Shown here in pieces: positions 32,984 through 54,894 of a DNA stretch of 64,000 bases. The stretch's first letter is position 1. Every line of letters starts with the position of its first letter. Under the pieces are notes generated by a model, which saw nothing but the letters and a program-made list of their open reading frames with translations, was not told the origin of the DNA and did not search any database. The stretch spans positions 7,089,954-7,153,953 of the forward strand of contig NZ_CP063458.1 of the NCBI RefSeq assembly GCF_015169395.1. The letters run 5' to 3'. The translations under genes were made by a program, and so were the position numbers. Source of the DNA: Humisphaera borealis (lineage in GTDB: Bacteria; Planctomycetota; Phycisphaerae; Tepidisphaerales; Tepidisphaeraceae).

Positions 32984-33263
32984 GAAAAACACGCCAGTGC
33001 CAAGAATCTGCGATACGCCCACTTCTAGCCTATCCTCGAATTGTAATTGCTTCCTATGAAACGACCCCGTAATTTGTTCGATAGCACTGTCGCCAAGACG
33101 ATTCTTGGACCTACTCCATCTTGGCAGATGAAGGCTGCGTACCTCGTGCCATTCGAGCTGAACGGTTTTCGAGTCGCCTCAATCCAAAACGGTGCCGCGC
33201 CGCAGTCGGACTTTTACACGTGGTAATCTGCCGCGCAGGTTTTTTTCAGCAGAGAAAATGCAC

Positions 33264-36200: not shown

Positions 36201-39200
36201 GGCACGCCAGTCGGCACACGCTACGCGGAACTGGTTGTTTCCGGTGTGGGTGTGGGTGGGAACGGCGCTATCGTCAACAACGGTGCCGCCATCACGAATA
36301 ACAGCCATTTCGCCAAGATCACCCTCTCTGGGAATACCACGTGGGGTGGCAGCGGACGCTATGACCTGGTCGCAGGTCAAATCTTCAACGGGGGTGCCTT
36401 TACGCTGACCAAAACGGGGACTGGAGACCTCTGGTATAATCCCTCGGCCGGCTCGGTCCTGGAAAACGTGATCGTCAATGGAGGGGTCTTCGGCTCCCAG
36501 GGTGCTAATCCGCTGTCCGCGACGGCGACCGTCACGGTGAACAGCGGGGGACTGCACCAGATTTTTGGGGCCAATGCGCAGCAACATAACGTGGTGCTCA
36601 ATGACGGCGGCATCCTCCGCCAATCAAACAACGCCGCCGGCACCATCAACGGTCAGGTCACGCTGAGCGGCACCACTGCCGGCCGCAACATCCAGGCGAT
36701 AACCGGCGGCACGCTGAACATCGCGGGCAAGCTGACCGGCACCGGCGGTTTCACGGTCAACGAAGCCGGCACGGTGCAGCTCCAGAACGCGGCCAACGAT
36801 TACGCCGGCGACACGGTGATCACCCTGGGCACGCTGAATTTCAGCGCCACCGGCATCATGCCGGCCACGACGAACCTCATCGTGAACGGCGGCACGTTTG
36901 CCACGGGCAACCTTCCGCGCTCCGTTGGCAGCCTCTCCGGGACGGGCGGCACCATCAGTGGCGGAAACAACCTGACCACGAACCAGTCGACCGCCACAAC
37001 TTGGTCTGGCATTCTCAGCGGCACCAACCTGATCATGAACGGGGCAGGCACGCTCACGCTCGCGGGCACCGCCGACAATAGCGGCGGTATCGTTATCGCG
37101 AACAGCGGCACAACCGTCCTGGCCAAGACTGGTGACTACGCGGTTCACGCTACTGGGTCAGGCAATCTCGGCCTCACCATCAACAGCAGCGCCACCGTGC
37201 AGATCGCCGGGAGCCTGACCGCGGTCACCGGTGGCTCCGCGAGCAATAATCCTCCCGCTGATATCACCATCGCCACTCCCCCTTCAAACTACGTCGACCA
37301 GATTTTCAACCTCACGGATGTGCAGTTGAATACCGGCGGTACGCTGGACCTGAATGGCCGCTTGGAAGCGATCGACGGCCTCGCTGGCGGCGGTACGGTG
37401 ACAAACACCTCTGCCACCACAGCACGCCTGTACGTCGGCTACAACAACACCACTAGCACTTCGCCTGGCTTCACAGGCAACACCAGCACGTTCTCCGGCG
37501 TGATTCAAAACGGAGCGAGCACGACAGAATTAAGAAAGATTGGAACTGGCATGCTCGTGCTCAGTGGGGCGAATACTTACACGGGAGCCACGATCGTTGA
37601 TGCCGGGACGCTGAACATCGCCGCAGGAGGTTCGCTTTCTAACACGCCGATCACCGTCAACGCTGGCACCCTGTTACTCGATGGCACGCACGGCACTGGC
37701 CCCATCGCGGTGAACGGCACCTCCGTCTTTGCCGGCGCAGGCACCTCTGGCGGCACCCTGACTGCCGCCACCGGCACCACGGTCCAGGTCGGCGCGGCCT
37801 CGGCGGGCACCGCCGCCACCACCCTCACCCTTGGTGGGCTTACCCTCAATGGCGGCACTAACCTCAATCTCGATTTCAACACCGCCGGCACCACGCTGGA
37901 CAAGATCGCGACGACCGCGACCAACGGCCTGAGCATCAGCGGGGCGAACCCCCTCAACGTCGTCTTGAGCGGGGCGGGCTGGGTTCCGGGCACCTACTCG
38001 ATCCTGACCTACGCTGGGGCGGTGCAAGGCACCGGCGCGACCAATGCGACCCTGGTGCTGAGCACCCCCGTGGGCCACAGTACTGTCAATGTCGTGGATA
38101 ACGGCTTGGGCAGTGTGAACCTTGTGGTCGCCGGCGCTGCAAACAAATGGGTCGGCGGTGTTAATAACATCTGGGACACCAACAACACGCTAAACTGGAA
38201 TGCCGGGGACCAGAAGTTCTTGGCCGGCGACTCTGTCGTGTTCGACGATACCGCCACGAGTTTCACTCCGAACATCCTCGCGAATCAGACGGCAGCCGGA
38301 GTGACCTTCGATAACACCACCGCCTACACGCTCACCAGCACCGGCACCTTCGGCATCGCGGGCACCGGCGGCCTGATCAAGAAGAACACCGGCACGGTTA
38401 CCATCTCCAGCGCCAACACCTACACCGGCTCCACCGATGTGCAGCAGGGCACGCTGATCGCGAACTTTAACACAGGCACTGCCCAGACGGTCTTCGCTGC
38501 CGCCAGCACCATCAACGTGGCCAGTGGAGCGACCTTCAAGGCCGTCGCCAACGACTCCAGTTTCACCCTCGCCAATAACCTCACCGGCAGCGGGCTAGTC
38601 GTGATCGATCCTCACTTAACGGCCGGAGCCGCCGTCCGCGATGTGACCATCTCCGGCAACAACGCCGGGTTCACCGGCACCCTTCGCCTGTCCCCGACCG
38701 TGATCGGCGATGGCCTTGGCACCTTCCGCACCAACCAGATGACACCGGCCAACGCCGGCGGCGCGACCATCGACGTGGACGCTGGCGGCCAGGCCTGGCT
38801 TTCCGCCGCAACCTTCACCAACAACTTCATCCTCACCGGCCACGGTTTCGCCGAAACCGCCGGCGGAACCCCGGTTGCGGCCTCCGGTCTCACGCAGTAT
38901 TCCGGCGCCGTGAAAGGCGGCATCGGTGCGATCCGCATGAATGGCGGGGCCATCATCAGCGGCAACATCACATTGGATGGGTCCGCCAAGATCATGCCAT
39001 ACAACGCCGCGGGTACCATCAGCGGTAGCATCAGCATCACGAATCCCACCGACACGCTCGTGGTCGGTGGTGGCGGCGCTGGCGCAACCCTAATCCTCAC
39101 CGGCACGAACAACGTCGGCGCAAATGCGCTCAACCAAGTCTTCGTGAATGCCGGAGGAACCGCCGGGACCAATATCCTGGCGATCGGTGCCAACGGAACG

Positions 39201-42200
39201 GTTGGCACACTGGGCACCGGGGCCGTCACCCTCAATGGCGACGCCGCGACCGGTGCGATCCGCTTCGACCGGGCGGACGGCTACACGCTCGCAGCCGCAA
39301 ACACGATCACCAGTTCGGGAACGACCACGGCCAACACCCGTCTGTTCATTGACACCCAGGGCACTGGCTTCGTCCAGAACGGCGTGGCGATCAACCTCGG
39401 CGGCGGTGCGTTGCAGTTCGGCACGCAGGCTGGTCGCACGGGAGCCACAGGCTCGTTCAATGGCAATGTAACCGTGGGTGCAATCAACGTCGGCACCGCC
39501 TCGACCGGCGCAGTGATGAACATCCTGCCCGGTGCCAACATCGCCAACTCCGGCAACTTCTTTCTCGGTGAAGCGGCCAACATGTCGGGCACGGTGATCC
39601 AATCCGGTGGCGACGTCAGCGTGGGCACCCATGTCCGCGTCGGACATTTTTCAACCAACACCAGCGCCTACACCATCAGCGCAGGAACACTGACTGTCGC
39701 CAACATCAACACGGCGACCGATCCTTCTACTTCCGGCACTACCGAGCAGAATGGCGGCATTTATCTTGGTATCGATGGCACCGGAACGATGGCTCATTCC
39801 GGCGGCACGGTGACGACGGACTGGATCGTCCTTGACAATCGTGGAGACACTCCGGCGGGAACGAACATGCCGGATGGGATCGACCGCTACACCCTCAGCG
39901 GCAGCGGCCTGCTCGTCCTGCGTAGCCAGTGGGGCATCACGCAGCGCAATACCAGCGCCGCCGTAACGCTCGCGGGCGGTACCATCCGAAATGGCGGCAC
40001 GAACCTTCAAGTGCGGCTCGACACGGCTCCGGACATTTCCGGCGCGATCACCCTCGACACCGTATCTGCCGGAAATAGCTTCAACTGGACGCGCAACGCC
40101 GCGGGGGCCGGATCGTTGGCCTTGTCCGGCGGCGGCACGCTCAAGTTTACGACCACCACCACGCAGTCCGTCGCGGTCCCCGTTTCAGGCACTGGAGCTT
40201 TGGAAAAGCTGGGCACTGGCACCACCACGCTGGGCGTCGCCAATACCTACAACGGCACCACCACGATCACCAACGGTACCCTGCAGGTGGGCGCGGCCAA
40301 TGCGATTCCCTCCGGTGCGGGCAAAGGGAACGTCGTGTTCAGCGCCGCCGCCACCAGCTCGCTCCTCGACCTCAACGGCTTCGACACCAGCATCAACGGC
40401 CTGAGCCAGCCGACCTCTTCCACTGCCAATCTGGTGGTGAACAACGCCACCGGAACCAACAAGACGCTGACGCTGGGCAACAACGATGCCACGGCCACGT
40501 TTGCCGGCATCATCGCCAATAACACCAGTGGCACCGGCACGCTAGCCCTGACCAAGGTCGGCACCGGCACCCAAACCCTGAGCGGCGCCAGCACCTTCAC
40601 CGGGCCGATCACGGTCAATGGCGGCCAGATCGCCTTCCCCTCGTCCCCGGCCACCAGCGGCCCGCTCGGCAATTCCACAGTCGTCAACCTCAACAACGGC
40701 AGCATCAGCTACACCGCCTCTGGCACCAACGCGCTGAACCGCAGCTTGGCGATCGGCGCGGGCAACGGCACCGTCGATGTCGCCCTCGCCACGGGTACCC
40801 TTACCGTCGCCAACCTCACGAGTACCGGCGGCAACTTGGTCAAGACGGGTGCCGGCACGCTCGCGCTGAGCGGCACCACCACCTTGAATGGGGGTGCGTC
40901 CAGCGTCACCGTGAGTGGTGGCACCCTGCAGGCAGGCTTCGGCACCAACGGCGTCACCGCGGTCAGCATCGGCGCGACCAGCAACCTGAGCATGCAAAAC
41001 TCCGCCATCCAGGGATTGACGCTCGGGAACACCGCGGGTGCCCTGACCCTCGCCGGCGGAGCAAGACTCGGCTTTGAGTTCGACGCGGCGACGAATGACA
41101 GCATCACGATCGGTGCAACAGGCACTCCTTCTTTGACGGCTGGGGTCATCACGCTGGACCTCTTCAACTTCAATACTGGCATCGCCGGTGGCAACACTTA
41201 CAACCTCCTCTCTACGACCCTCGGGGACCTCACCTTCGGTGGGCTCACGACGTATGTGCTCGGCTCGGCACCGAGCGGTTTTAACTACACGCTGAACGCA
41301 ACCAATAACCTCGTCTCGCTGGGGGTGTCGGCATTCTCGCCAGCCTATTGGACGGATAGTCAGGGAACCGGCTCCTGGTCCACGCTCAATGCGGGTCCGC
41401 TGAGTAACTTCAGCACGCTCGCCACTGGGGGCGCCAATACGGCTGCACTGCCGGGAGTCAATGAAACGGTCTTCTTCAGCCAAGACGGCGTGGCGGGCCC
41501 GACCGTCACTTCGGCGCTGAACGGAAACTTCACCATCCGCGGTCTCAATTTCGTCGCCGGATCCGGCACTGTCACCGCGGTGAATATCAACCAGGGCAGC
41601 TCCGGCACACTCACGATTCAGCCTTCGACCGCTACCGGCGGCATCGATGTCGGAACCAACGCCGGCGCCGTTACCATCAGCGCACCGCTAGTGGCCTCGA
41701 ACACCAGTGCGGCCAGCCAGACTTGGAATGTGGACGGCACGGGTGCCAACGGCTCGTCCCTCACCCTCAATGGCGTGGTCACCTTCACGGCCAATGTCAT
41801 CAAGACCGGTTCCGGGACGCTGACTCTGGGCAATGCCGGCAACAGTGGTGCGGGCAACTTCACGCTGACCGGCGGCACGCTCGCCGTCAGCGCCACCGGC
41901 AACGTCCCGACGGGTGTCTTCACCATCGGCACCGGCACGACGATTAACAACACCGGCGGCGGCACCGTCGCCTTCTCGAACTCCTCCTACGTCTGGAACG
42001 GCGACTTCACCCAGTCGGGCCAGAGTCTGGATCTGGGCGCAGGGCCGGTCACTCTCGGCCTGAACACGCAGGTCACCGTGGCCACCAACACCCTCACCGT
42101 CGGCGGCGCGATCGGCGATGGCGGCAACAATCGCTCGCTGACCAAGGCGGGTGCGGGCACTCTGGTGCTGGGCGGCACCAACACTTACACTGGCGCAACC

Positions 42201-45200
42201 AGCGTGACTGCCGGTACGGTCAGTCTGACCGGCGCCCTCACGGGCGGCGGGGCCATCTCCACCAGCGGCACCGGCGTCCTCTCGCAGACCTCCACCGGCG
42301 TGATCAGTGGCGCTTCCACCATTACCCAGGGCAGTTCCGGTACCAGCGTGATGGCTGGCAATAACACCCACGCGGGACTGACCTCGGTCACTGCGGGCGT
42401 CCTCACCCTGTCGGGCAATAACTCTGGCGCTTCCGGCGGAGTGACCCTCACCGCAGGCCAGTTAAACATCAACAACAACAACGCCCTCGGCACCGGCACG
42501 CTGACCCTCAATGGCGGGACGATCGACAACACGTCCGGTGGCCCGGTCGTCGTTCCAGCGGGCCTCGTCCCCACCCAGATCTGGTCGAACACCGCGACCG
42601 TTGCTTTTGTGGGATCCAACACCCTGAACCTCGGCACCGGTGCCGTGGCCCTGGGAACGGATGCGACGACTGGCACCTTCACGCTGACGAACAACAGTCT
42701 TCTGGTAGGCACCTCGCTTACTGTCGGGGGAAGCATCTCGGCCATCGCGGGCGGCACCGCGGGAGTGAAGACCCTCACCATTGCCGGACCCGGCAGCACG
42801 GCACTTACAGGAAGCATCACGAAGGGAAGCGCTTCCAACGTGGTGGTCACGGTCACCTCCCCAGGCACGACGACGCTCTCCGGTGCTGCAAGCTCGATCC
42901 AGACCATCAATATCGACGGCGGTGCGACCAGCATCGTGGATCTCGGTGCGGGTAACCTCACCATCACAAATGGCGGCACCAACGGCTTCCGATCGTCGAC
43001 CGGCGGCACCATCAATGCGACCGGTGGCGGTAAGATCATTCTGGGGAGCGATCTGTTGGACAATGGCACGAACGATGGAACCACGCTCACCGTGAACGCG
43101 GGGATTACCGGGCCCTTCACGTTCGAGATCTATGGAGGCTCGGCGACCAATACTGGCGTCACCGTGCTGACGGCTCAGAATACTTTCACTGGCAACGTTC
43201 AGATCAATGGTGGCAACCTGCGCGTTTCCAACATTGGCAACACTGGCTCCCTGACCAGCAATCTTGGCCAGGGTACGATCATCCAGAGCGGAGCCGCTGT
43301 CCTGGCAGGAAGTACTGTCACAACAGGCAAACTCATTTACACAGGTGTTGGAGAAACCACGAACCGCGTTCTGACCATGAGTGGAGCGGGCTTCGCGATT
43401 GAACAAGCCGCGACCTCGGGCCACCTGGTCTTCATCGCCCCAGTCAGTGTGACCAACACTGCCGCGAAGAATCTTTTCCTGCTCGGTTCGACGGCTGGCA
43501 CCGCCGAAATTGCCGGAGTGATTCCAAACAATACGGCCGCCACCAGCATCACCAAGCTCGGCAGTGGCACTTGGACGCTCAGCGGTGCCAACACCTACAC
43601 GGGGACGACGAACGTCAACGAAGGCACTCTGGTTCTCTCGGGAAGGGGCACCGGTACCCCTGGCATAGTTTCCGTGAGCACCCTCCCCGGCCTGAGCGCC
43701 ACGCTGAACATCACCGCTGGCACCTACGCTTTCGGTGCCGCGCGGATGAACGTCGGTAACGCCGCGACCACCGCGGCCACCGGCACAGTGAATCAAAGCG
43801 GTGGGGCGATCAGCTTCACCGGCAGTGATCAACTGCTCGTAGGTCAGGGCACTGTCGGAAACACCGGCATTTACAATCTCAGCGGGGGAAGCATCACCAC
43901 CGCCGCCGCCGCGGGTCGTGGTGTGATCCTCGGAGTGAACTCGAACCCCACCCCCGGACCCACCAGCGGTGGCGGCACCTTCAACCTCAGCGGAACGGGT
44001 GCGCTGAACATGACGGCGGCCTCCGGTGGAGGTGGCAACGCGATCCTCCAGATCGGCCGTTCCGACGCCGTTGCCAACAACACAACGAACGTGTTCAACC
44101 AAACCGGCGGAACCGCAAGTGTGGGAATTCTGGCGATGGGTGGCGCAGCAGCCGGATCGACGGGTGTGAGTTCCACGCTCAATCTCACCGGCGGCACGTT
44201 CTTGGCGAACTCCTTCACCCTGCTCGCAGCCGGTGGCACCAACACGGCAGTGATCAACATCGGTGGCACCGCCCAGGTCACCCTGCCAGCCTTCCCGACG
44301 AATGCCAAAGGGGTCGGCTCGACGGCGACCATCACCTTCGATTCCGGGACGGGTTCTTTGTCTCCGCTTGCGGCCAGCGCCACCTACATGCCAGCCGGAA
44401 CTTTCAACAATGCCTACCTCACCGCCAATGGGGCGAAGTTTAATGTCGGCACCGGAAATGACATCACCATTGGCCAAGTGCTGCAGGACGCCGTCTCGCC
44501 CGCCGCCGCCGGTACGCTCACCAAGCAAGGCACGGGAATGCTGACGCTCACGGGCGCCAACACTTACACCGGCCAGACCACCATTACCGCTGGCACCTTG
44601 GCCGTCACTGGTTCAATCTCCAGCTCCACCCAAGTCCTCGCCGGTGGCACCCTCGCCGGCAACGGCCAGATCACGGAAGCCGTGACGATCAGCGCCGGCG
44701 GGTCGATCCGGCCCGGCGTGCCCGGTGGATCGATCACCAGCATTCTGACCGTCAAGAGTCTGGCGATGGTGAATGATCCGACGGCGGTCTTCGGTGTCGA
44801 CATCACCGGCATCACCGTCGGCACTGGCTATGACCAGGTGACGTTACCCAACGCCGGGACGTCGACCGTGTCGCTGGCGGGTGCGAGTCTGTCGGTGAAG
44901 CTCGGCACGGTGCTTGCCGGCGACGGCAGCGAGAAGTTCGTCATCATCAACAACACCTCGGCCGTCAACACGCCGACTGGTCAGTTCTCAAGCCTGATCG
45001 TCGAATCTAGTCCTGCGTTCGGCGTGCCGGCGACGACGACACTCACCTCCGCAAACGGCGGGCTCGACTTCATCGACCCGTCGAACGGTTTCGTCTACAC
45101 GCTGATGTACAACGTCGACTCGGCGAACACCTCGACGCCCGGCAACGACGTGGTGCTGAGTGTGGTGCCCGAGCCGGGAAGCCTGGCGCTGGCAGCGATG

Positions 45201-45239
45201 GCGGGCGTGGGCCTGCTGGCTCGTCGGCGACGGAGGTAG
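33264..45239 (+). CDS. Giant autotransporter-associated beta-strand repeat protein with PEP-CTERM anchor
   Basis: The start is taken at the ATG at 33264 (33258 is also possible); about 3990 residues. A long signal peptide (RSSALAAAAAIALTQLAPSPAQA) is followed by a very long series of autotransporter-associated beta-strand repeats with the core G-AN-TYTG-T-V-GTL. Three breaks start new modules: VWDVNTTSNF near residue 830, IWDTNNTLNW near 1635 and YWTDSQGTGSWS near 2693. The C-terminus is a PEP-CTERM signal, VPEPGSLALAAMAGVGLLARRRRR, made of the PEP motif, a hydrophobic helix and a basic cluster, which is normally processed by an exosortase. There is no outer-membrane autotransporter barrel. 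It is expected to form a long beta-helix at the surface. The continuous 12-kb frame argues that it is functional. Confidence 0.9.
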   Translation: MSKKAKFAARRHPLTVRSSALAAAAAIALTQLAPSPAQAASGAWNVDAAGNWITAGSWTPAAAPGSTTADNTDIATFGFTLTAARIATVDATRFIGGISFGNTSAFGYTLSGGSLRLNNGGVIQTLAANGAHTDTISTPIQISGTTTAAATFTAGATAATSLLSIGAVTGSATATTTTTLNLNGTNTGGNAVTGIIANGTGGALSLTKSGTGTWVLSGANTYTGLTTVSAGALTVTNAAGLGTTAAGTSVTSGAALQLNTVVVGAEALTLNGTGISAGGALRNLAGTSSYAGAITLGSASRINSDAGTMTLSGAMGGAFALTVGGAGTTTISGAIGTGAGTLTKDGTGVLILSGANTYSGVTTVSDGTLRISNASALGTNTAVTVNQGVVAGGNGTILDLTGTLTHGSGKTVTFNSNSTGDFRSTLLNSANNNTWAGNIVAAGTGIVAVNAATGTTLTVTGGVSSTSGAGTGTLFTRGAGTVVYNGVINLGSDRIFSKTDAGTVIVNSTGNSWVRAQVANGQIQIGANNALANTEFTFGQTGAGDGRLELNSFSQTVTRLNTAAGSTATNHILRNSNLTTASTLTFATPNATTDTLTNLQVQGTASGLGTLNLVSNGLGRTEFNGGLVSANSWTVNSGTLAFTGANNRVLPGSVTGLVGATIEKAGASTLAATSTWNNAGTTNVVGGALVLGAGTAGAVNVSDLATLSTGLGGGVLSSSAVTFGTAGATTYVPLLTTAGAVAPLNAFSLTTAGTTVTIAPQAGLFTPGTYRLLDYTGSIGGNGFGGFALAPVGSYPHITAALDNTTAGQVNLVVTAADSLIWAGQTNGVWDVNTTSNFALASSTSTGATFYQGDAVVFGDTHDVGGPATPVTNSTITGGAVTIGNLTFNNSAVNYSVANPLSGAGGITKTGTGAVTLSGASTYAGATSVSNGTLTLSGANVLGGGAVNVTGGTLRIGNSDALRGAGSITVSGGGTFDANGTPVGTRYAELVVSGVGVGGNGAIVNNGAAITNNSHFAKITLSGNTTWGGSGRYDLVAGQIFNGGAFTLTKTGTGDLWYNPSAGSVLENVIVNGGVFGSQGANPLSATATVTVNSGGLHQIFGANAQQHNVVLNDGGILRQSNNAAGTINGQVTLSGTTAGRNIQAITGGTLNIAGKLTGTGGFTVNEAGTVQLQNAANDYAGDTVITLGTLNFSATGIMPATTNLIVNGGTFATGNLPRSVGSLSGTGGTISGGNNLTTNQSTATTWSGILSGTNLIMNGAGTLTLAGTADNSGGIVIANSGTTVLAKTGDYAVHATGSGNLGLTINSSATVQIAGSLTAVTGGSASNNPPADITIATPPSNYVDQIFNLTDVQLNTGGTLDLNGRLEAIDGLAGGGTVTNTSATTARLYVGYNNTTSTSPGFTGNTSTFSGVIQNGASTTELRKIGTGMLVLSGANTYTGATIVDAGTLNIAAGGSLSNTPITVNAGTLLLDGTHGTGPIAVNGTSVFAGAGTSGGTLTAATGTTVQVGAASAGTAATTLTLGGLTLNGGTNLNLDFNTAGTTLDKIATTATNGLSISGANPLNVVLSGAGWVPGTYSILTYAGAVQGTGATNATLVLSTPVGHSTVNVVDNGLGSVNLVVAGAANKWVGGVNNIWDTNNTLNWNAGDQKFLAGDSVVFDDTATSFTPNILANQTAAGVTFDNTTAYTLTSTGTFGIAGTGGLIKKNTGTVTISSANTYTGSTDVQQGTLIANFNTGTAQTVFAAASTINVASGATFKAVANDSSFTLANNLTGSGLVVIDPHLTAGAAVRDVTISGNNAGFTGTLRLSPTVIGDGLGTFRTNQMTPANAGGATIDVDAGGQAWLSAATFTNNFILTGHGFAETAGGTPVAASGLTQYSGAVKGGIGAIRMNGGAIISGNITLDGSAKIMPYNAAGTISGSISITNPTDTLVVGGGGAGATLILTGTNNVGANALNQVFVNAGGTAGTNILAIGANGTVGTLGTGAVTLNGDAATGAIRFDRADGYTLAAANTITSSGTTTANTRLFIDTQGTGFVQNGVAINLGGGALQFGTQAGRTGATGSFNGNVTVGAINVGTASTGAVMNILPGANIANSGNFFLGEAANMSGTVIQSGGDVSVGTHVRVGHFSTNTSAYTISAGTLTVANINTATDPSTSGTTEQNGGIYLGIDGTGTMAHSGGTVTTDWIVLDNRGDTPAGTNMPDGIDRYTLSGSGLLVLRSQWGITQRNTSAAVTLAGGTIRNGGTNLQVRLDTAPDISGAITLDTVSAGNSFNWTRNAAGAGSLALSGGGTLKFTTTTTQSVAVPVSGTGALEKLGTGTTTLGVANTYNGTTTITNGTLQVGAANAIPSGAGKGNVVFSAAATSSLLDLNGFDTSINGLSQPTSSTANLVVNNATGTNKTLTLGNNDATATFAGIIANNTSGTGTLALTKVGTGTQTLSGASTFTGPITVNGGQIAFPSSPATSGPLGNSTVVNLNNGSISYTASGTNALNRSLAIGAGNGTVDVALATGTLTVANLTSTGGNLVKTGAGTLALSGTTTLNGGASSVTVSGGTLQAGFGTNGVTAVSIGATSNLSMQNSAIQGLTLGNTAGALTLAGGARLGFEFDAATNDSITIGATGTPSLTAGVITLDLFNFNTGIAGGNTYNLLSTTLGDLTFGGLTTYVLGSAPSGFNYTLNATNNLVSLGVSAFSPAYWTDSQGTGSWSTLNAGPLSNFSTLATGGANTAALPGVNETVFFSQDGVAGPTVTSALNGNFTIRGLNFVAGSGTVTAVNINQGSSGTLTIQPSTATGGIDVGTNAGAVTISAPLVASNTSAASQTWNVDGTGANGSSLTLNGVVTFTANVIKTGSGTLTLGNAGNSGAGNFTLTGGTLAVSATGNVPTGVFTIGTGTTINNTGGGTVAFSNSSYVWNGDFTQSGQSLDLGAGPVTLGLNTQVTVATNTLTVGGAIGDGGNNRSLTKAGAGTLVLGGTNTYTGATSVTAGTVSLTGALTGGGAISTSGTGVLSQTSTGVISGASTITQGSSGTSVMAGNNTHAGLTSVTAGVLTLSGNNSGASGGVTLTAGQLNINNNNALGTGTLTLNGGTIDNTSGGPVVVPAGLVPTQIWSNTATVAFVGSNTLNLGTGAVALGTDATTGTFTLTNNSLLVGTSLTVGGSISAIAGGTAGVKTLTIAGPGSTALTGSITKGSASNVVVTVTSPGTTTLSGAASSIQTINIDGGATSIVDLGAGNLTITNGGTNGFRSSTGGTINATGGGKIILGSDLLDNGTNDGTTLTVNAGITGPFTFEIYGGSATNTGVTVLTAQNTFTGNVQINGGNLRVSNIGNTGSLTSNLGQGTIIQSGAAVLAGSTVTTGKLIYTGVGETTNRVLTMSGAGFAIEQAATSGHLVFIAPVSVTNTAAKNLFLLGSTAGTAEIAGVIPNNTAATSITKLGSGTWTLSGANTYTGTTNVNEGTLVLSGRGTGTPGIVSVSTLPGLSATLNITAGTYAFGAARMNVGNAATTAATGTVNQSGGAISFTGSDQLLVGQGTVGNTGIYNLSGGSITTAAAAGRGVILGVNSNPTPGPTSGGGTFNLSGTGALNMTAASGGGGNAILQIGRSDAVANNTTNVFNQTGGTASVGILAMGGAAAGSTGVSSTLNLTGGTFLANSFTLLAAGGTNTAVINIGGTAQVTLPAFPTNAKGVGSTATITFDSGTGSLSPLAASATYMPAGTFNNAYLTANGAKFNVGTGNDITIGQVLQDAVSPAAAGTLTKQGTGMLTLTGANTYTGQTTITAGTLAVTGSISSSTQVLAGGTLAGNGQITEAVTISAGGSIRPGVPGGSITSILTVKSLAMVNDPTAVFGVDITGITVGTGYDQVTLPNAGTSTVSLAGASLSVKLGTVLAGDGSEKFVIINNTSAVNTPTGQFSSLIVESSPAFGVPATTTLTSANGGLDFIDPSNGFVYTLMYNVDSANTSTPGNDVVLSVVPEPGSLALAAMAGVGLLARRRRR

Positions 45240-47089: not shown

Positions 47090-47112
47090 GCTGGGGTACT
47101 AGGATTCGAATC
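47090..47112 (-). other. Attachment core: tRNA-Gln 3'-end fragment next to the integrase gene
   Basis: The minus strand reads TTCGAATCCTAGTACCCCAG: T-loop, 3' half of the T-stem, the acceptor strand TACCCCA and a G discriminator base. These are the last positions of a bacterial tRNA-Gln (its 5' end would be TGGGGTA). The rest of a tRNA is not present to the right. The fragment ends 75 nt before the tyrosine-integrase start. Tyrosine integrases commonly use tRNA 3' ends as attachment sites, so this is best read as the left att core of the island. Confidence 0.65.
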
Positions 47113-47186: not shown

Positions 47187-48305
47187 ATGGCGAGTGTGAT
47201 CAAGCGTAAGAAGTCGTCCAAGGTCTGGACCGGGATCTACATTGACCACACCGGACGGCAAGTCTGGAAGGCCCTGTATGCGGACAAGGCCGAGAGTCTG
47301 CGCGCCGTGCAGCGACTGGAGGACGCCGCCAAGAGGATCGCCAATGGCGACATCGATCCTGCGGCGGAGGAACGTCGTCGCGAACGGGCGAAATCCGTAC
47401 AGGACCATATCAGGGGCTTCGAAGCGTCGATGATTTCCAATGCACGCTCCGCCGGCCATGTGTCCTACTCAACGCGAGACGTCGAACTCTTCGTCGCTCA
47501 CGCCGGCGTCAAGCATGCGGCGGCCGTCACCCGCCAGCATGTCGATGCTTGGCGGACGCACTGCCTCGACGTCGGATATCTGGACCCTCGTCGGCTGAAG
47601 CGCAAGGAGCGTGACGGCGACGTCCCATTGATTCCCAGTCCCGATGCCCGACGGACCGTAAATCGCAGGGTCGCTTCCGTCCGTGCCTGGCTGTATTGGT
47701 GCCAGCAGGCAGGTGTGATCGATCGCAACCCGCTGCATCGCTATGGAACTCTGGCGACTGCTGGGCACGAGCGGCGGGGCAGGCGCCGCGCGCTGTCGCG
47801 TGAGGAGCTCGACAAGCTTCTCACCGCCACACCGGATGAGCATCGCCGGCTGGTGTACCGTTTCGCGGCGCTGACGGGGTTTCGCAGGTCGGAGGTTGCA
47901 AGTCTGACCGCAGCCAGCTTTGACCTGAAAGAGGCAACGGTCACTGTCGGGGCACTGCATGCCAAGCGAAAAGATGCCGACCAAACATTGCCACTTCATC
48001 GCGAGCTGGTTGGGCCGGTCGGGGCGCTCATAAAAACCGTCGGTAAAGGCCAGCCCTTGTTCGCCGTCCCGCCGAAGAATGACGTGGTCGCGACGCTCCA
48101 TGCCGACCTTCGGGCAGCGGGCGTTGAGACGGCTGGCATTGTTTTTCACTCTTTAAGACACACCTTCTGCAGCTTGCTAGCGGCCAAACAGATCCGGCCG
48201 GAGGTTCTAAAGCACCTCGCGAGGCACAGGGACATAAAAACCACATTGGGCTACTACGTTCACTGGCGGTCATCCGACGAACGCGACGCAATCAATGCAA
48301 TGTAA
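47187..48305 (+). CDS. Tyrosine site-specific integrase
   Basis: The product has 372 residues. The N-terminal arm-binding and core-binding domains (about residues 1-195, with ARRTVNRRVASVRAWLYWCQQAGVIDRNP) are followed by the catalytic domain (about 205-372). Catalytic residues are visible: Arg in ALTGFRRSEVASL, the H-x-x-R box in FHSLRHTFCSLL, then HRDIKTTLGYYVHW carrying the late histidine and the tyrosine nucleophile. The full length suggests it is active. It lies directly beside the tRNA-Gln 3'-end fragment and heads the island of small HTH, ParB-like and nuclease genes. Confidence 0.9.
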   Translation: MASVIKRKKSSKVWTGIYIDHTGRQVWKALYADKAESLRAVQRLEDAAKRIANGDIDPAAEERRRERAKSVQDHIRGFEASMISNARSAGHVSYSTRDVELFVAHAGVKHAAAVTRQHVDAWRTHCLDVGYLDPRRLKRKERDGDVPLIPSPDARRTVNRRVASVRAWLYWCQQAGVIDRNPLHRYGTLATAGHERRGRRRALSREELDKLLTATPDEHRRLVYRFAALTGFRRSEVASLTAASFDLKEATVTVGALHAKRKDADQTLPLHRELVGPVGALIKTVGKGQPLFAVPPKNDVVATLHADLRAAGVETAGIVFHSLRHTFCSLLAAKQIRPEVLKHLARHRDIKTTLGYYVHWRSSDERDAINAM

Positions 48306-48317
48306 CGTCAGGTTGGG

Positions 48318-48980
48318 CTACGGCGCGCCCAGTCCCTCCAGCCATCGATGGATATCTGTCCGGCACCACCGTACCACCCGGCCGAAAGGTAGGGGCTTCG
48401 GCAGTACGCCGGAGGACTTCATTGCCCGGATCTTCCGGGGAGAAAGTTGCAACAGATGCGCGAGTTCGGCGGGGGTGTAAACGGCGCTCGGCAATGACGG
48501 CCGAGGTGCCGGCAATCTCCGCTTCCTGGGCGGTCGCAACCTGCTGGGCAATGGCATCGGGGTGGGGTGAAAGTCGCCCGCCTCTTTGAAGGGTCCCGTC
48601 GCGAGCGATAGCAAAAAGTCCCTCCACGATCCGCCTGCATAGGGGATTCCGGCAGCAGCGGCGAGCTTAATGATCCGATCGTCCATCGGGCTGTCTCCGG
48701 CGAACCAAGACGCACTAAGGTGGTTAGGGTCTACAGCGGACTGCCCAGCCGCTGTCATCCATACACGGTCCAGCAGTGTTGAACGTTGGGCGTCGAACAG
48801 TACACACATTCTGGCAGCAATCAGCGATCCGGCAAAGGCCGGGTCACTCAAGCCAGCAATCGGATCAATAACGCGCGCCCCGGATCGCCCCGCGCCTGGA
48901 CCGCCCGGGACAGTCCAGCTGGTCATCGTCATCAGTCGTCGACGATCAGCGGGCTTAGACGATTTGCGACGGCCGGGCAA
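48318..48980 (-). CDS. Excisionase-like helix-turn-helix protein with long N-terminal extension
   Basis: Up to 220 residues; the start is uncertain (TTG at 48980, ATG at 48932). The C-terminal 50 residues are a MerR/excisionase-type winged HTH: SAVYTPAELAHLLQLSPRKIRAMKSSGVLPKPLPFGRVVRWCRTDIHRWLEGL. The first 150 residues are not recognised and include a proline/arginine-rich linker. Converging with the integrase, with only 12 nt between stops, it is a candidate recombination directionality factor or regulator of excision. Confidence 0.6.
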   Translation of the reverse strand: MPGRRKSSKPADRRRLMTMTSWTVPGGPGAGRSGARVIDPIAGLSDPAFAGSLIAARMCVLFDAQRSTLLDRVWMTAAGQSAVDPNHLSASWFAGDSPMDDRIIKLAAAAGIPYAGGSWRDFLLSLATGPFKEAGDFHPTPMPLPSRLRPPRKRRLPAPRPSLPSAVYTPAELAHLLQLSPRKIRAMKSSGVLPKPLPFGRVVRWCRTDIHRWLEGLGAP

Positions 48981-49152: not shown

Positions 49153-49517
49153 ACGTTCCGCTCATTTACCATCCGCCCACAAACGTGGCATTGAGCTTGA
49201 TGGTCGTACTTTCGTCTGCATACCATACTGAAGGCGTGGCGTACCGCAGAATGATTCTGCTCGGACCAACTGATGTCGTACCCGACGCTTTGTTGGTGAA
49301 CCACGCAGAATTCCGGAATGTCTGGTGGCGGTCAGCCACATCGTGCGCGGTTAGCATATGGCCCGAGCATGGACCGGCGACGTGCTGACTCGGCGGGACT
49401 GGCCGCTAACCGCCCCAAGTATTTGTAGCTGTCGACACGCCGCAGGCATCGCGCCACATGACTCGATTGCCGTAGTCTGAAGCAGAGAGAAAGAGTCCGG
49501 TGAAACGGAGCAAAGCT
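49153..49517. other. Intergenic region without a recognisable gene
   Basis: About 365 nt between divergent genes. Short open frames on both strands lack ribosome sites and known motifs. It must contain the promoters for the HTH pair and the next gene, but I see no clear consensus. Confidence 0.4.
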
Positions 49518-50603
49518 ATGGTGTATGACCCCCTTCCCACCTGTGAATTGAACAATGCGTCGCTGGTGGCGGACCTCACTTCGCGGCACCAGGAGTTTGT
49601 CGCCATCTATAACTTTCTACAGGACAAGCGCCCGATCGAACTGGTCAATGCAATGGAACCGGCAGCTTTGGGGGACTTTCACCAAGCGTTCCCTCAGCAG
49701 TCCCTTCTGGAGGTGACCAAATCCCGGGCCTCCAGCGCTTATGTACTTGGTGCGGGGGGGCTCTATGGCTTGATCGGCAGCCATGCCAAGATGAACGGCT
49801 GGACCTTCGGGCGCACCATACTGACGATGGCCTTGCGGCTGGGCTACAAGCCTACGGCATCCGTCGATGACCTAAAGTGCGCGATCGGCATGTTTCCCGG
49901 CGACTCGTTCGAGCCCCTGCGGATCGGCGACGGCTGGATTGACGTAAAGAGTCCTACCCCTCCCTGGCTCGAGAAAGAAGAGGTTGAAGTAACCGCCTCA
50001 TCATCAGCATCGCCGACCTACAAGTTTCAAAAAGACGGGGAGGTCTTCGTTGTGGCCTTCGACGGCGCGGAAGCCAAACTCCCTAGCGATGTCAATCTGC
50101 GGCGACTTCACTATCTGCTGGGGCGCCCCGACCAAGAGATACAGTGGCACGAATTGGCAGCGGTTGATGCAGAAGCCCCGCCGTTGAGGGTCGGTTTCAA
50201 GACGGCAGATATCAACGATTTGAACCCAGACGGTGGCACGACGCCTGATTTTGCTATGGATGGAGAGTACGTCGCAAAAGTGCAGACATATATCGAAGAG
50301 GCAGAGAGAGAACTCGAGTATTGCTTGGACCAGGAAAAAAGAGTTGGCCTGGCAGATGCAATTTCTAGGGCGAAAACACACCTCGTGGGCTCGACCGGCC
50401 TTGGCGGGAAGATTCGCGATCTAGGCCAGGGATCCACTCAATCAAAGGCCGCTAGCGTTGGTAGATCGCTCGCGCGGGGCATCAAACGGCTCCGGGAGCG
50501 CGGTCTCGGGGCACTCGCAACCCACCTGGAAAAGAACATTGACGCGCCCGGCGAGACATGGAAGTACGCGCCTGAATCACCCGCTCCCGAATGGGAGCTG
50601 TAA
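49518..50603 (+). CDS. Island protein of unknown function
   Basis: The start is taken at the ATG at 49518, with CGGAG 7 nt upstream; a GTG at 49500 is also in frame; 361 residues. No signal peptide or membrane segment. The central part (about residues 130-240) looks like an HTH-containing region (FQKDGEVFVVAFDGAEAKLPSDVNLRRLHYLLGRPDQEI), a layout I associate with winged-helix effector domains of planctomycete proteins. The C-terminal 100 residues are a charged helix (EYVAKVQTYIEEAERELEYC) followed by AASVGRSLARGIKRLRERGLGALATHLEKNI and WKYAPESPAPEW. I do not recognise the enzyme or partner. Confidence 0.6.
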   Translation: MVYDPLPTCELNNASLVADLTSRHQEFVAIYNFLQDKRPIELVNAMEPAALGDFHQAFPQQSLLEVTKSRASSAYVLGAGGLYGLIGSHAKMNGWTFGRTILTMALRLGYKPTASVDDLKCAIGMFPGDSFEPLRIGDGWIDVKSPTPPWLEKEEVEVTASSSASPTYKFQKDGEVFVVAFDGAEAKLPSDVNLRRLHYLLGRPDQEIQWHELAAVDAEAPPLRVGFKTADINDLNPDGGTTPDFAMDGEYVAKVQTYIEEAERELEYCLDQEKRVGLADAISRAKTHLVGSTGLGGKIRDLGQGSTQSKAASVGRSLARGIKRLRERGLGALATHLEKNIDAPGETWKYAPESPAPEWEL

Positions 50604-50825
50604 AACGATCTTCGAGAGCTATGAAGATACTGCGAGAGCCGGGAACTTCCCGGCTCTCGCTCTATTTCAGGGGCCTTCTTCTTGCAGGCATCGGATGACC
50701 TGCCAAGAAAAATTCTGCGTGTCCGTAAGCGGACAGGTTTTGTCTCGCCTTAGGGTTAACGCCGCCGTGTTGGCGGCCACCATCGCGAAATGACGCGACC
50801 CAACCCGCTAAGTGCGAGGAGACCT

Positions 50826-51863
50826 ATGACGCTGTCGAGTGATGATTGTCCGAACAAGCCCGCCGATGCCCCGGTCCCGCCCGTGGAGGCATGCCCCTCC
50901 GTGGAGCCGAACACCGCTGCCGATCTTCCCGGCGACCCGAGTGCCGGCCCGCCGGCACCTGACCCGGTCGAGGAGCTCGATCGTCTGCTCAATTCCCCGA
51001 GGCCCCCCGTCGAGGTCCCGATCCTGGACCTCCTGCCGGTGGACCGCGGCATGCAAGTGCGGGAAGGTTGTAATCCGGATGCCGTGTCGAACTATGCCAC
51101 CGCGATGAACCGCGGCGACGCCCTCCCGCCGATTCGGGTCATCAAGGACCGGGGACGCGTCCGTGTCTTCGACGGTTTCCACAGGCTTGACGCCGCAATC
51201 AGCCTCGGTCGGGAAAGTGTCGCCTGTACTGTTTACGAGATCTCCCGCAACCAGGCCGAGTTGCTCGCAATCAGGAGCAACGTTGTGCACGGGCGGGTTC
51301 TGGGCAACGCGGAGAAGGCCGCCGCGGTCAACAAAATGCTGGCGGGCAGCAACTCTACTTGGAGCGATAACCACATCGCTGGGTTGTGCGGCGTGAGTGC
51401 TGCCCTGGTCGCCGCACGCCGCAAGCTGAGCGGTGCCAAGAGCCCCACCAGGACGGCAGTTAGGCGGGGCGTCCCCTACCAGATGCGCGTTGACAAGATC
51501 GGCCGCGCTACCAAGAGTCGGGCCCCTGCGGTCAACGCCCCGCCCGCATCCGTGCAGCCCCGCTCTACTGCCATCAGGGTCGCTGATCAGTTTCAGAAGC
51601 TGGAGGTTTGGGGGCAGCGGGCCGGCGACGACGAATGGCGATCGCTCGTCGTCGCTATGAGCGATCACGGTGCGCCGCTCACCACGGCCATCGAGACGAT
51701 GAGCAGCCAGTTCTCGACGCTCCAGAGCGCTACTCTGAGCCCCGTTCAGGTTGGGGCGGCACGGGCGTCGCTTGAAGCTTTTGACGCCGCATTTCAGCAG
51801 TATCTCGAACGGCTTGATGCGGTCATGAAGCGGCAGGGTATCGAGGCGTGCCGGGAACCGTAG
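50826..51863 (+). CDS. ParB/Srx-fold protein with HTH, island partition-like protein
   Basis: The start is taken at the ATG at 50826 behind GAGGAG; 345 residues. The first 60 residues are acidic and proline-rich. Residues about 65-150 are a ParB nuclease-like domain (DLLPVDRGMQVREGCNPDAVSNYATAM, LPPIRVIKDRGRVRVFDGFHRLDAA). The GFHRLDAA box corresponds to the ParB G-x-H-R motif. An HTH follows (WSDNHIAGLCGVSAALVAARRKL). The C-terminal region may dimerise. No ParA is encoded nearby, so it may be a stand-alone regulator of the mobile element and not a full partition system. Confidence 0.75.
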   Translation: MTLSSDDCPNKPADAPVPPVEACPSVEPNTAADLPGDPSAGPPAPDPVEELDRLLNSPRPPVEVPILDLLPVDRGMQVREGCNPDAVSNYATAMNRGDALPPIRVIKDRGRVRVFDGFHRLDAAISLGRESVACTVYEISRNQAELLAIRSNVVHGRVLGNAEKAAAVNKMLAGSNSTWSDNHIAGLCGVSAALVAARRKLSGAKSPTRTAVRRGVPYQMRVDKIGRATKSRAPAVNAPPASVQPRSTAIRVADQFQKLEVWGQRAGDDEWRSLVVAMSDHGAPLTTAIETMSSQFSTLQSATLSPVQVGAARASLEAFDAAFQQYLERLDAVMKRQGIEACREP

Positions 51864-51904
51864 GCCTGCCACCGCCGGACTTGCCAAGATCGGAGTGCAT
51901 GCCA

Positions 51905-52186
51905 ATGACCGCGCCGGTAGCGACATCGCTTACATCCATCGACGGAAGATTGGGCGTTATGACTGAAGAAGATTCCAGATCCGGACTTCCACTGACGGTA
52001 TCCGAAGCCGCAAGAACGGTGAGCGATATCGTCGGCTCGGAGGTGGCCCCCAAGGTGCTGAGCGACATGCTGTACCGGCGTGAGCTCGACGATCGGGTCT
52101 GTCCGGTGCATGCCGGGAGACGGATGATCCCTCGCCACTATCTGGACGTTATTGCTCAGAAGGTCCGGCAGCGTCGGGGGGAGTAG
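51905..52186 (+). CDS. Small putative DNA-binding protein
   Basis: The start is taken at the ATG at 51905 (GGAG 9 nt upstream; in-frame alternatives at 51848 and 51899); 93 residues. The C-terminal 65 residues (GLPLTVSEAARTVSDIVGSEVAPKVLSDMLYRRELDDRVCPVHAGRRMIPRHYLDVIAQKVRQRR) have the layout of an excisionase/MerR-like HTH with a wing and a final basic helix. It follows the ParB-like gene by 41 nt. Confidence 0.5.
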   Translation: MTAPVATSLTSIDGRLGVMTEEDSRSGLPLTVSEAARTVSDIVGSEVAPKVLSDMLYRRELDDRVCPVHAGRRMIPRHYLDVIAQKVRQRRGE

Positions 52187-52810
52187 CGAAAGCGGGCGCC
52201 CGAGCCGCCCACATTGCAGCGTGCCGTCCAGCCGGCACGCTGCAATGCAGGTAGGTTCGACGTCGAGCTGTCTACGTTTTGCTCTCCAAGCGACGATTAA
52301 CGGGGTGGCTCGCAGCCGCAGCGATCGCATTTTGGCTGCTTCTACTATCGAAAGAATACAAGCAACGCAAGAGGCACCAAGAGATGAGTTTCAGCTACAT
52401 CTGCATCCCCCTGTCCGTCACCCGTCCGTCAGCGAAAACGGACGCCGAGGGGGTCGAAAACCCCCAGTCCGCCACGTCCGTCACCTCTTCTTCCTTCATG
52501 ATGATCGAAGACAGACAGAATGGAGACAGGGGAGAGGTAGTCACCCTCCAGAGCAACCCGCACTCCTGCGGAGGTAGGGCGGCCCCGCTCCGCCGCAGCG
52601 TAGCGGCGAAGCCCTGGTAGTTCTTGGCGAGCAGTTTAGGGGCACCATCTTCATTCTGAGGATGAGATAAGTCCCGCCCATTCTTCGTCACAATACGTTG
52701 AACGTCTTAGCGGTCAGCACAAATCGCTTGTGCTGACACCTCTCTCATGGCCCGCCGGCGCTCTCACTCTGAGTGTCGACGGGCCCTTCTCTTTTTCAGG
52801 AGGTCTCTCC
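52187..52810. other. Gene-poor spacer with GTCCGTCA-type octamers
   Basis: About 620 nt. Open frames here have poor starts and no family features. A 26-bp inverted pair near 52210-52245 (CATTGCAGCGTGCC and GGCACGCTGCAATG) follows the small DNA-binding gene and could be its terminator. The stretch 52412-52482 holds four octamers. Confidence 0.5.
52412..52482 (+). repeat. GTCCGTCA/GTCCGCCA octamer cluster A
   Basis: GTCCGTCA occurs at 52412, 52423 and 52475, and GTCCGCCA at 52466, all in the same direction, with a small hairpin (GGGGTCGAAAACCCC) between the pairs. A larger cluster of the same octamers lies at 54521-54733. Confidence 0.6.
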
Positions 52811-53032
52811 ATGCCCTTGTCCATCAATGTCGGCCTCAGTCGCAAGGCGAGCCGAGACTATCAGTCGACCGGTTACTCCATCAACGTCACCGCCGAACTC
52901 GATCAGGCCCTGCTGGGCCAATGGCCCGCATTGCGCCTCGTGACAGCCCAGACCATCCCATACGCCCGGCCAACCGCCAGGCTCTGGCCATCACCGGCCG
53001 GCCGTACCTGTCCCATTCACAGATGTACCTGA
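52811..53032 (+). CDS. Short INVGLSRK-type protein, probably the severed front of the next gene
   Basis: It has a strong ribosome site (CAGGAGG, 8 nt before the ATG) and 73 residues. The first 40 (MPLSINVGLSRKASRDYQST, GYSINVTAELDQALLG) look like a genuine conserved N-terminus. After about residue 43 the sequence turns into Pro/Arg-rich text (PTARLWPSPAGRTCPIHRCT), which is the out-of-frame reading of the nuclease gene that overlaps it. I infer a frameshift near 52930 or a deletion joining two genes. Confidence 0.5.
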   Translation: MPLSINVGLSRKASRDYQSTGYSINVTAELDQALLGQWPALRLVTAQTIPYARPTARLWPSPAGRTCPIHRCT

Positions 53033-53784
53033 TGCGGACCTGTCCCCGAAAGTTTGCCTTCAGCTACGTCGAGAGAGCCCGACCGTCCTTCGTCCCCGCC
53101 ACGCTGCGGTTCGGCGGCTCGATCCACGCCGCCTTGGAACTGCGTTACCGCTGCCGGCTCGAAGGCCTGACCGCGACGCCCGAGGCGTTGCTGTCGGCGT
53201 ACCACGATGCCTGGCGACGCGAACACCAGCGCGATGGCGACATCCCCGTCCGCTTCAACAAAGGCGACGACACGGACACCCTCGCCGCCCTGGCCGATCG
53301 CATGCTCCGGTCCTTCCTGGATTCGCCGCTGGCGACGCCCAAAGGCACCATCCTGGGCGTCGAAGAAGAGCTACGTGTGGAGCTCGTCCCGGACCTGCCC
53401 GACCTGCTGGCCCGGGTGGACCTGGTCACGATGACCGACGAATCGCTGTTCGTCATCGACTTTAAAACGAGCCGATCGCGGTGGACCGAGCCCAAAGCCC
53501 AGGAGTCTGGCGACCAACTTGTGCTCTACGGCCGAACGGTCGAGGAGCTTGGCCGCACCCTCGGCCTGCCGGTCAAGCTGCACTTTGCGATCATCACCAA
53601 GGCGAAAAAGCCGGTGATTCAGCTTCTGCCTGTGCCGACTGACCCGACTCGTGTCGCCGCACTTACCGAGTCGGTGAGCCAGGTGTGGCGGGCAATCCAG
53701 ACCGGGAACTTCTACCCAAGCCCGTCGCCGCAGAACTGTACGTCGTGCCCCTTCCGCAGCCGCTGCCCAGTGTTCGCGGGCTGA
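52921..53784 (+). CDS. PD-(D/E)XK nuclease, RecB/Cas4-like with iron-sulfur cysteines
   Basis: About 287 residues; the start is uncertain, since the ATG at 52921 lacks a ribosome site and the frame is open back to 52747. The nuclease starts with YLSHSQMYLMRTCPRKFAFSYVER, followed by RFGGSIHAALE. The catalytic core is LLARVDLVTMTDESLFVIDFKTS, with the motif II Asp and the D-x-K. The last residues CTSCPFRSRCPVF, together with the early CPRKF cysteine, give the four-cysteine iron-sulfur cluster set known from AddB and Cas4-type nucleases. There are no cas genes or helicase next to it. A role in DNA end processing of the mobile element is likely. Confidence 0.8.
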   Translation: MARIAPRDSPDHPIRPANRQALAITGRPYLSHSQMYLMRTCPRKFAFSYVERARPSFVPATLRFGGSIHAALELRYRCRLEGLTATPEALLSAYHDAWRREHQRDGDIPVRFNKGDDTDTLAALADRMLRSFLDSPLATPKGTILGVEEELRVELVPDLPDLLARVDLVTMTDESLFVIDFKTSRSRWTEPKAQESGDQLVLYGRTVEELGRTLGLPVKLHFAIITKAKKPVIQLLPVPTDPTRVAALTESVSQVWRAIQTGNFYPSPSPQNCTSCPFRSRCPVFAG

Positions 53785-53854
53785 GGCCTCACCTTCCTGA
53801 TCCCTTGTTTTCAACCACCAACCACCCGCCCCTAGGGCGGGAGAAGGATCTTCC

Positions 53855-54058
53855 ATGTCGATTATTCCCGTTTCGCGTCTATCCATGTCCGACCTGTCCC
53901 GGCTCGGCAACAACCTTCGCTACGCCGAGAACGCGGCTTCCAACTATGAGCCCGATGCCGACGAGCGAGACCGCAAAGCCGAGCGCCGGCGGCTGGCACC
54001 GCTGAACCGCTCGCTCGCCAGCGTCGGTGAGCGGATCGACGGCCTCACCCGTGACTGA
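53855..54058 (+). CDS. Small charged island protein
   Basis: The product has 67 residues, with AGAAGGA 8 nt before the ATG. It is mostly helical and charged (ADERDRKAERRRLAPLNRSLASVGERIDGLTRD). No family is recognised. It is in line with the nuclease upstream and the next small gene, so probably in one operon. Confidence 0.5.
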   Translation: MSIIPVSRLSMSDLSRLGNNLRYAENAASNYEPDADERDRKAERRRLAPLNRSLASVGERIDGLTRD

Positions 54059-54106
54059 TCGCGGCCGTCGCGACAGCACCATTCCCGACTATTCAAGGAG
54101 TTCTCG

Positions 54107-54487
54107 ATGAGTCACCGCCGATATCGCCTGCTCACGGAGCAGGTCAAGCTGTGCAGCCCGGAGGCGATCCTCCGGGCTGCGTCGTTATGTGATGGGCACA
54201 GCATCCTTGCCCCCAAGGCATTTCTCGACGCCGGTCTGCCACCCGACGTCGTCGCACACCTGACGTCAACGCACGAGTCCGACGGCACGCCAAAGAGCTC
54301 GATCTACGTGAACGGACATGCGGTCGAAAAGCTGGAGGGCGTCTACGGCTTGGACGCCTTGCGGTTCCTGGCGTCGGCGTTGTGCGTGGAGTACCGCAGC
54401 GCCATCGGTAGGGGGTTCGAGGCCGCCAACATCCTTCATGCTCTTGAGCAGCACCTGCAGCCGACGGTGCCCAAGCCTGCGGCGTGA
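54107..54487 (+). CDS. Island protein of unknown function
   Basis: The product has 126 residues, with AAGGAG 7 nt before the ATG. It is soluble and alpha/beta-like, with no signal peptide (RLLTEQVKLCSPEAILRAASLCDGHSI, SSIYVNGHAVEKLEGVYGLDALRFLASALCVEY). No motif is recognised. The good ribosome site and neighbouring genes support that it is real. Confidence 0.55.
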   Translation: MSHRRYRLLTEQVKLCSPEAILRAASLCDGHSILAPKAFLDAGLPPDVVAHLTSTHESDGTPKSSIYVNGHAVEKLEGVYGLDALRFLASALCVEYRSAIGRGFEAANILHALEQHLQPTVPKPAA

Positions 54488-54520
54488 GGGTGGGCAGATT
54501 CGGCACATCTTCAATCGCCC

Positions 54521-54733
54521 GTCCGTCAGCGTCCGTCGCCGTCCGCCAGCAGGGGAGGGGCTGTTTTTCCCTGGTCCGTCACGTCCGCCACGTCCGTCAC
54601 TACCTATCTCTCTTGATTGAAAATGATCGCTAAACCAACCTGTCTGGGTCGGGGGGGGGGGCTTCCTGTTGCCGAGCCGTAATCTCTGCGAGAAGAGTAA
54701 GCGTAGCTGGCGGACGTGACGGACGGTGACGGG
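54521..54733. repeat. Iteron-like GTCCGTCA octamer array, cluster B
   Basis: About ten copies of GTCCGTCA, GTCCGCCA or close variants. Plus-strand copies sit at 54521, 54531, 54541, 54574, 54583 and 54592, spaced 9-10 nt within each group; minus-strand copies lie around 54709-54733, and one more lies at about 54770. Between the two orientations is an AT-richer segment (TTGATTGAAAATGATCGC) and a run of more than ten G. Such arrays resemble replication iterons or binding sites for a partition protein. Confidence 0.6.
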
Positions 54734-54894
54734 CCAGGCTTTTCAGGGCTTCGCAACCCTCGTCGGCCTGACGGACGGCCAGATCAATCCCTCCCAAACG
54801 ATCCAGACCGGCGATGGAACCTCGCTGTCGCTGCCCTTTCATAGCAGTGGCGGCACGCTCAGCATCACCCACCCCATCTTCGACACTGTCGAAG

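Follow-up and report, generated by a model that had tools for sequence, protein, structure and literature searches.

Octamer arrays resembling a D5-type replication origin

The window analyzed here, a stretch of 64,000 nucleotides of the Humisphaera borealis genome (contig NZ_CP063458.1, positions 7,089,954 to 7,153,953), contains an integrase island in which the octamer GTCCGTCA and its variants are arrayed in three noncoding blocks. On balance, these octamers appear to be the iterons of an origin of the D5 / SaPI-Rep / P4-alpha type (SaPI, Staphylococcus aureus pathogenicity island), orphaned in a tRNA-Gln integrase island without an initiator gene and most likely a relic. The arrays match a D5-type origin in their word, their spacing, their two orientations, and an adjoining AT-rich stretch. 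Judged by sequence, they look like such an origin and would work like one, and they are not called a complete replicon of the D5 family because its defining feature, an adjacent initiator gene, was sought and is absent. The lack of this gene makes the origin an orphan, and the arrays are probably what remains of an element that formerly copied itself. The blocks and the DNA between them are as follows.

52413–52483, + strand: block A, four octamers (GTCCGTCA, GTCCGTCA, GTCCGCCA, GTCCGTCA) starting at 52413, 52424, 52467, and 52476, spaced by 11, 43, and 9 bp
54521–54599, + strand: block B, six octamers in two triplets starting at 54521, 54531, 54541, 54574, 54583, and 54592, spaced by 10, 10, 33, 9, and 9 bp
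54605–54634, no strand: low-GC stretch of 30 bp (30% GC) abutting block B, a candidate unwinding element
54651–54661, + strand: run of 11 G between blocks B and C
54708–54776, − strand: block C, three inverted octamers starting at 54708, 54717, and 54769

The exact octamer GTCCGTCA occurs nine times in the window, with eight of the copies at 52413–54776, compared with a mean of 3.3 in shuffles of the whole window. The initial annotation had described at least fourteen near-identical octamers in both orientations, in two clusters 2 kb apart at 52412–54733. The arrays are indeed present, with 13 copies of GTCCGYCR (eight of them exact GTCCGTCA) in blocks A, B, and C across that interval and the next 43 bp, and a further near-copy recognized by eye, GACGGGC at about 54727, brings the number to fourteen. 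Both clusters are present as well, but block C reaches 54776, and the two orientations are unevenly distributed, as A and B share one orientation and only C is opposite. The spacing within blocks is mostly 9, 10, or 11 bp, in agreement with the spacing of about one helical turn that had been described. A 17-nt perfect inverted repeat links blocks B and C (54574–54590 and 54708–54724). The gap between these blocks (107 bp) has a GC content of 53% compared with 64% for the window, and the AT-richer segment and G-run previously placed between opposite blocks correspond to the 30-bp stretch and the 11-G run within this gap. The arrays share two features with D5/SaPI-Rep-type origins: the short repeats are clustered at intervals of about one helical turn and lie outside coding sequence, and those of B and C face in opposite directions on either side of an AT-richer segment (54605–54634).

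Genome-wide statistics are given as pattern counts. The exact octamer is found 330 times (178 + 152) in 7,189,892 bp, and the same word read backwards 269 times (140 + 129). The octamer is therefore near background in the genome and its clustering is local, which answers the suggestion of the initial annotation to count it genome-wide and test its clustering; it is not equally frequent throughout the genome. The Poisson probability of eight octamers in 2.4 kb is ~4e-13. Half of the 14 pairs of the form GTCCGYC-N1..4-GTCCGYC in the genome (seven) lie in the arrays described here, and the sole other tandem 14-mer is located inside an open frame that is RtcB-like by eye. Blocks B and C are significant in a repeated-7-mer shuffle test (0/200 shuffles). 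Few copies of the tandem 17-mer occur in 298 genomes from this class, mostly in what reads by eye as coding sequence.

Several other explanations or lines of support were rejected. A genome-wide regulon is not supported as the octamer is near background; vertical conservation is not supported as no DNA match was found in 25 other genomes of the family; and the arrays do not travel with the island's genes for the nuclease, ParB, or the 126-aa protein, being absent near homologues of these genes. A hairpin or RNA function for the three blocks was also rejected, as DNA folds of B and C were no better than those of shuffles and there was no credible Rfam match. A literature search with the octamer as the query returned only unrelated work, and no DNA similarity to phage records was found.

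The same word 3′ of D5 primase-helicase genes

A scan of viral contigs for pairs of the octamer gave 13 noncoding matches, compared with four for the backwards word, and 15 extra nearby copies compared with zero. In five phage loci (L225, L277, L288, L267, and L286), the arrays are noncoding and start at most ~180 bp beyond the stop codon of a D5 (superfamily 3, SF3) helicase gene; the D5 gene of L286 is truncated, with a BLAST match to D5 helicases (E 2e-25). The repeat word of the window is thus seen 3′ of D5 genes elsewhere, as for an origin of this type. The Acidithiobacillus phage AcaML1 has three TGACGGGT-type octamers followed by two inverted ones, 9 bp apart. Its region 3′ of Gp17 and the five phage loci resemble the window in having TGACGGAC or TGACGGGT octamers spaced by 9–11 bp in both orientations; they differ from it in that a D5 gene lies directly 5′ and that the block order is reversed. 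A locus from the same class as the window (L582) has TGACAGAT arrays, likewise directly 3′ of a D5-type gene. On another phage contig (L255, 14260–14408), a noncoding array has four copies of GTCCGTCA followed by four of TGACGGAC, and the same phage encodes an AAA_25 protein and a PDDEXK/DUF2800 nuclease.

The association between D5 genes and downstream repeats was also found independently of the word. Short repeats (e.g., CGGACAG, GCGTCCA, and CTGTCCA) are densely packed immediately 3′ of D5 homologues that were identified by protein search alone. When the 350 bp 3′ of D5 genes were examined for 7-mers whose copy number exceeded that in every one of 200 shuffles, 15 of 22 loci were positive compared with 1 of 21 in-gene control stretches, and 11 of 18 were positive without the four loci that had been picked for their array. 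The tested set includes the Lactobacillus phages A2 and phi-adh, in which a rep_origin with direct and inverted repeats is annotated directly 3′ of the D5-type gene. Of the origin, partition site, and operator array offered as options by the initial annotation, the origin is therefore the one with independent support, as the same octamer occurs in a similar geometry 3′ of phage D5 genes, where two phages have annotated origins. In addition, other two-orientation arrays follow Prim-Pol/AAA_25 genes on the 3′ side in islands of this class that encode a ParB homologue. The arrays of L120–L123 (CAGTTCCG; GTCAACTG) are in this position in both orientations and are likely origins.

Comparison with known systems and proposed mechanism

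For the SaPI Rep protein and the Cch2 protein of the staphylococcal cassette chromosome (SCC), a D5-family helicase, the iterons that are used or bound lie immediately 3′ of the gene that encodes the helicase (PMC7581432). The window arrays are likewise short noncoding iterons, but unlike the SaPI Rep origin and the SCC Cch2 site, they have no helicase gene directly upstream, and none was detected in the genome. Phages A2 and phi-adh share with the window direct and inverted short repeats, which in A2 flank an AT-rich stretch, whereas their repeat words are different (ACGGGAGGAT; AACTATACACAA) and an initiator is present in these phages. The two clusters of the window, 2 kb apart, also recall the layout of ori and crr in the satellite phage P4, although the window has no alpha-like gene and its origin is putative.

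In such an origin, the primase-helicase normally encoded directly 5′ would recognize the site, bind the repeats in both orientations, melt the adjacent AT-rich stretch, and load itself. Melting would accordingly take place at blocks B and C and the AT-rich stretch that they enclose, and block A, at a distance of 2 kb, may be a second origin or an accessory cluster similar to crr of P4. We infer protein binding, melting, and replication in the past, as well as a former initiator that has since been lost.

The integrase island and the missing initiator

The arrays lie in an island with the following features.

47091–47110, + strand: att-like core of 20 nt, identical to the 3′ end of tRNA-Gln(CTG) at G000:C1:7174895-7174967, forming a direct repeat 37.85 kb apart; candidate island end
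47187–48305, + strand: tyrosine integrase (Phage_integrase), directly inside the att-like core
48318–48980, − strand: HTH_17 (helix-turn-helix, HTH) protein, excisionase-like
49500–50603, + strand: 367-aa protein without a family match
50790–51863, + strand: ParB-like protein (phrog_1033, E 4e-16)
51848–52186, + strand: small protein, possibly HTH by eye, without a family match; start codon uncertain
52747–53784, + strand: RecB/Cas4-like PD-(D/E)XK nuclease (PDDEXK_1, Pfam); true start uncertain, with homology from near residue 60
52811–52915, + strand: first 35 codons of a 194-aa gene, the intact version of which precedes the nuclease gene in related islands; the remainder is deleted, and the remnant runs into the nuclease gene in another reading frame
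53855–54058, + strand: 67-aa open reading frame (ORF), for which related islands have a counterpart (by eye)
54107–54487, + strand: 126-aa conserved protein, 58–60% identical to those of two islands in genome G053

The ParB-like gene and the nuclease that had been noted near the octamers are both real, the former being ParB-like by PHROG and the latter RecB/Cas4-like by Pfam. A tyrosine integrase beside a direct repeat of a tRNA 3′ end is characteristic of tRNA-integrated elements, and the intact tRNA-Gln is located 37.85 kb rightward, past the end of the window. Because the integrase is just inside the 20-nt repeat of the tRNA-Gln 3′ end, position 47091 is likely the left end of the island and C1:7174915 is a candidate right end. 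The stretch to the right-hand tRNA-Gln also contains an efflux system, a PEP (phosphoenolpyruvate) carboxylase, and transposases, and the island may therefore be composite.

The element has probably also lost parts, as suggested by comparison of gene content with the related G053 islands. The 194-aa gene precedes the nuclease in a related G053 island and only its first 35 codons are left here, and the beta-clamp-like and DUF932-like genes (by eye) that flank the 126-aa homologue in G053 are absent. The deletion that fuses the 35-codon start out of frame to the nuclease gene is located at 52811–52985. Just upstream, a leader with hairpins ending in "TTCAGGAGGTCTCT" (52713–52808) has a 73% identical, gene-less copy at G000:C1:827363-827458. 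In another related island (L058), a 1353-aa Cas9-like protein (by eye; 3192–7253, − strand) is encoded beside the integrase, 194-aa gene, and nuclease, and a tRNA-like sequence adjoins.

A cognate primase-helicase gene directly 5′ of the repeats, as expected of a D5/SaPI-Rep-type origin, was not found, and tblastn of the window gave no credible remnants of D5 or Prim-Pol genes. The earlier proposal of an element able to replicate when excised is not upheld: the island has an integrase and an att-like repeat derived from a tRNA, but neither a D5 nor a Prim-Pol initiator is found in the genome.

Evidence against an orphan origin, and alternative readings

Several observations weigh against the interpretation of the octamers as iterons of an orphaned origin. 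Neither D5_N nor Prim-Pol has a match in the genome, and there is no initiator among the long ORFs scanned from the end of the window to tRNA-Gln. The exact octamer is used at 0 of 28 D5 loci of the phylum with readable 3′ sequence, and the arrays are absent from the G053 islands, which are the closest by gene content. Block A alone is non-significant in the repeated-7-mer shuffle test (p 0.135). The block order of the window, GTCCGTCA and then TGACGGAC from left to right, is the reverse of that of the five D5-linked phage arrays in gene direction; unlike those five, L255 has the block order of the window. Finally, a scan of viral contigs for three octamers in a row gave 68 stretches compared with 81 for the backwards word, that is, no excess. 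Triple-copy counts in viruses were accordingly rejected as proof on their own, as the backwards word is as frequent and the stretches are mostly coding or perfect tandem repeats, and the claim therefore rests on noncoding position and geometry instead of raw counts.

Alternatively, the blocks may form an operator array, bound by an HTH protein of the island (48318–48980, 51848–52186, or an unrecognized regulator) that controls the nuclease operon from block A and another unit at blocks B and C. An HTH_17 protein is encoded in the island, and block A lies ~330 bp upstream of the first codons of the nuclease operon. We nevertheless consider an operator array unlikely, as B and C have no recognized gene immediately downstream, no sigma-70-like promoter was found (a weak test in this phylum), 13 copies in both orientations are more than usual, and arrays of the same word elsewhere are located 3′ of D5 genes.

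Slightly less probable still is an origin that remains in use in trans. The island would then be an initiator-less satellite or a decoy with iterons that fit a widely shared D5-helicase word (TGACGGAC), and the D5 helicase of an infecting phage would either replicate it or be titrated by it. Several D5 phages have the word as an iteron-like repeat, both the integrase gene and the 126-aa gene appear intact, and phage-encoded resistance is known to result when origin regions of a phage are provided in trans (PMC8965321). However, the deletions in neighboring genes suggest decay, no phage of the host with TGACGGAC iterons was identified, and no packaging genes were seen. A relic is the most likely state of the orphaned origin, ahead of continued use in trans.

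The ParB-like gene at 50790–51863, 550 bp upstream of the octamers, raises a further alternative, that of a parS-like centromere, to which we give marginally less credence again. Plasmid centromeres typically contain clustered short repeats, but a scan of proteins near parB that did not extend to every small ORF found no ParA, and in the ParB-bearing islands L120–L123 the arrays are 3′ of the Prim-Pol gene and kilobases from parB. Non-functional repeats, such as a short-period expansion of the word GTCCGYCAC, are very improbable: 9-bp periodic GTCCGYCAC arrays do exist in coding DNA elsewhere, but the three blocks here are noncoding, lie up to 2 kb apart with a common word and spacing and with differing spacers and orientation, and match D5-linked arrays.

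Implications and an additional gene of the window

The interpretation as an orphaned D5-type origin ties the word of a planctomycete-like island to repeats beside the D5 primase-helicases of unrelated phages, and the sequences suggest that one recognition word (about TGACRGRY) may recur across hosts. The noncoding DNA that follows D5 and Prim-Pol genes on their 3′ side is also a promising place in which to search for origins. Were the orphan origin still in use, the island could exploit or block phages without an initiator of its own; as a relic, the more likely case, it would be of modest interest.

Elsewhere in the window, positions 33192–45239 encode a 4015-aa repetitive, autotransporter-like protein with a PEP-type sorting signal at its end (by eye).
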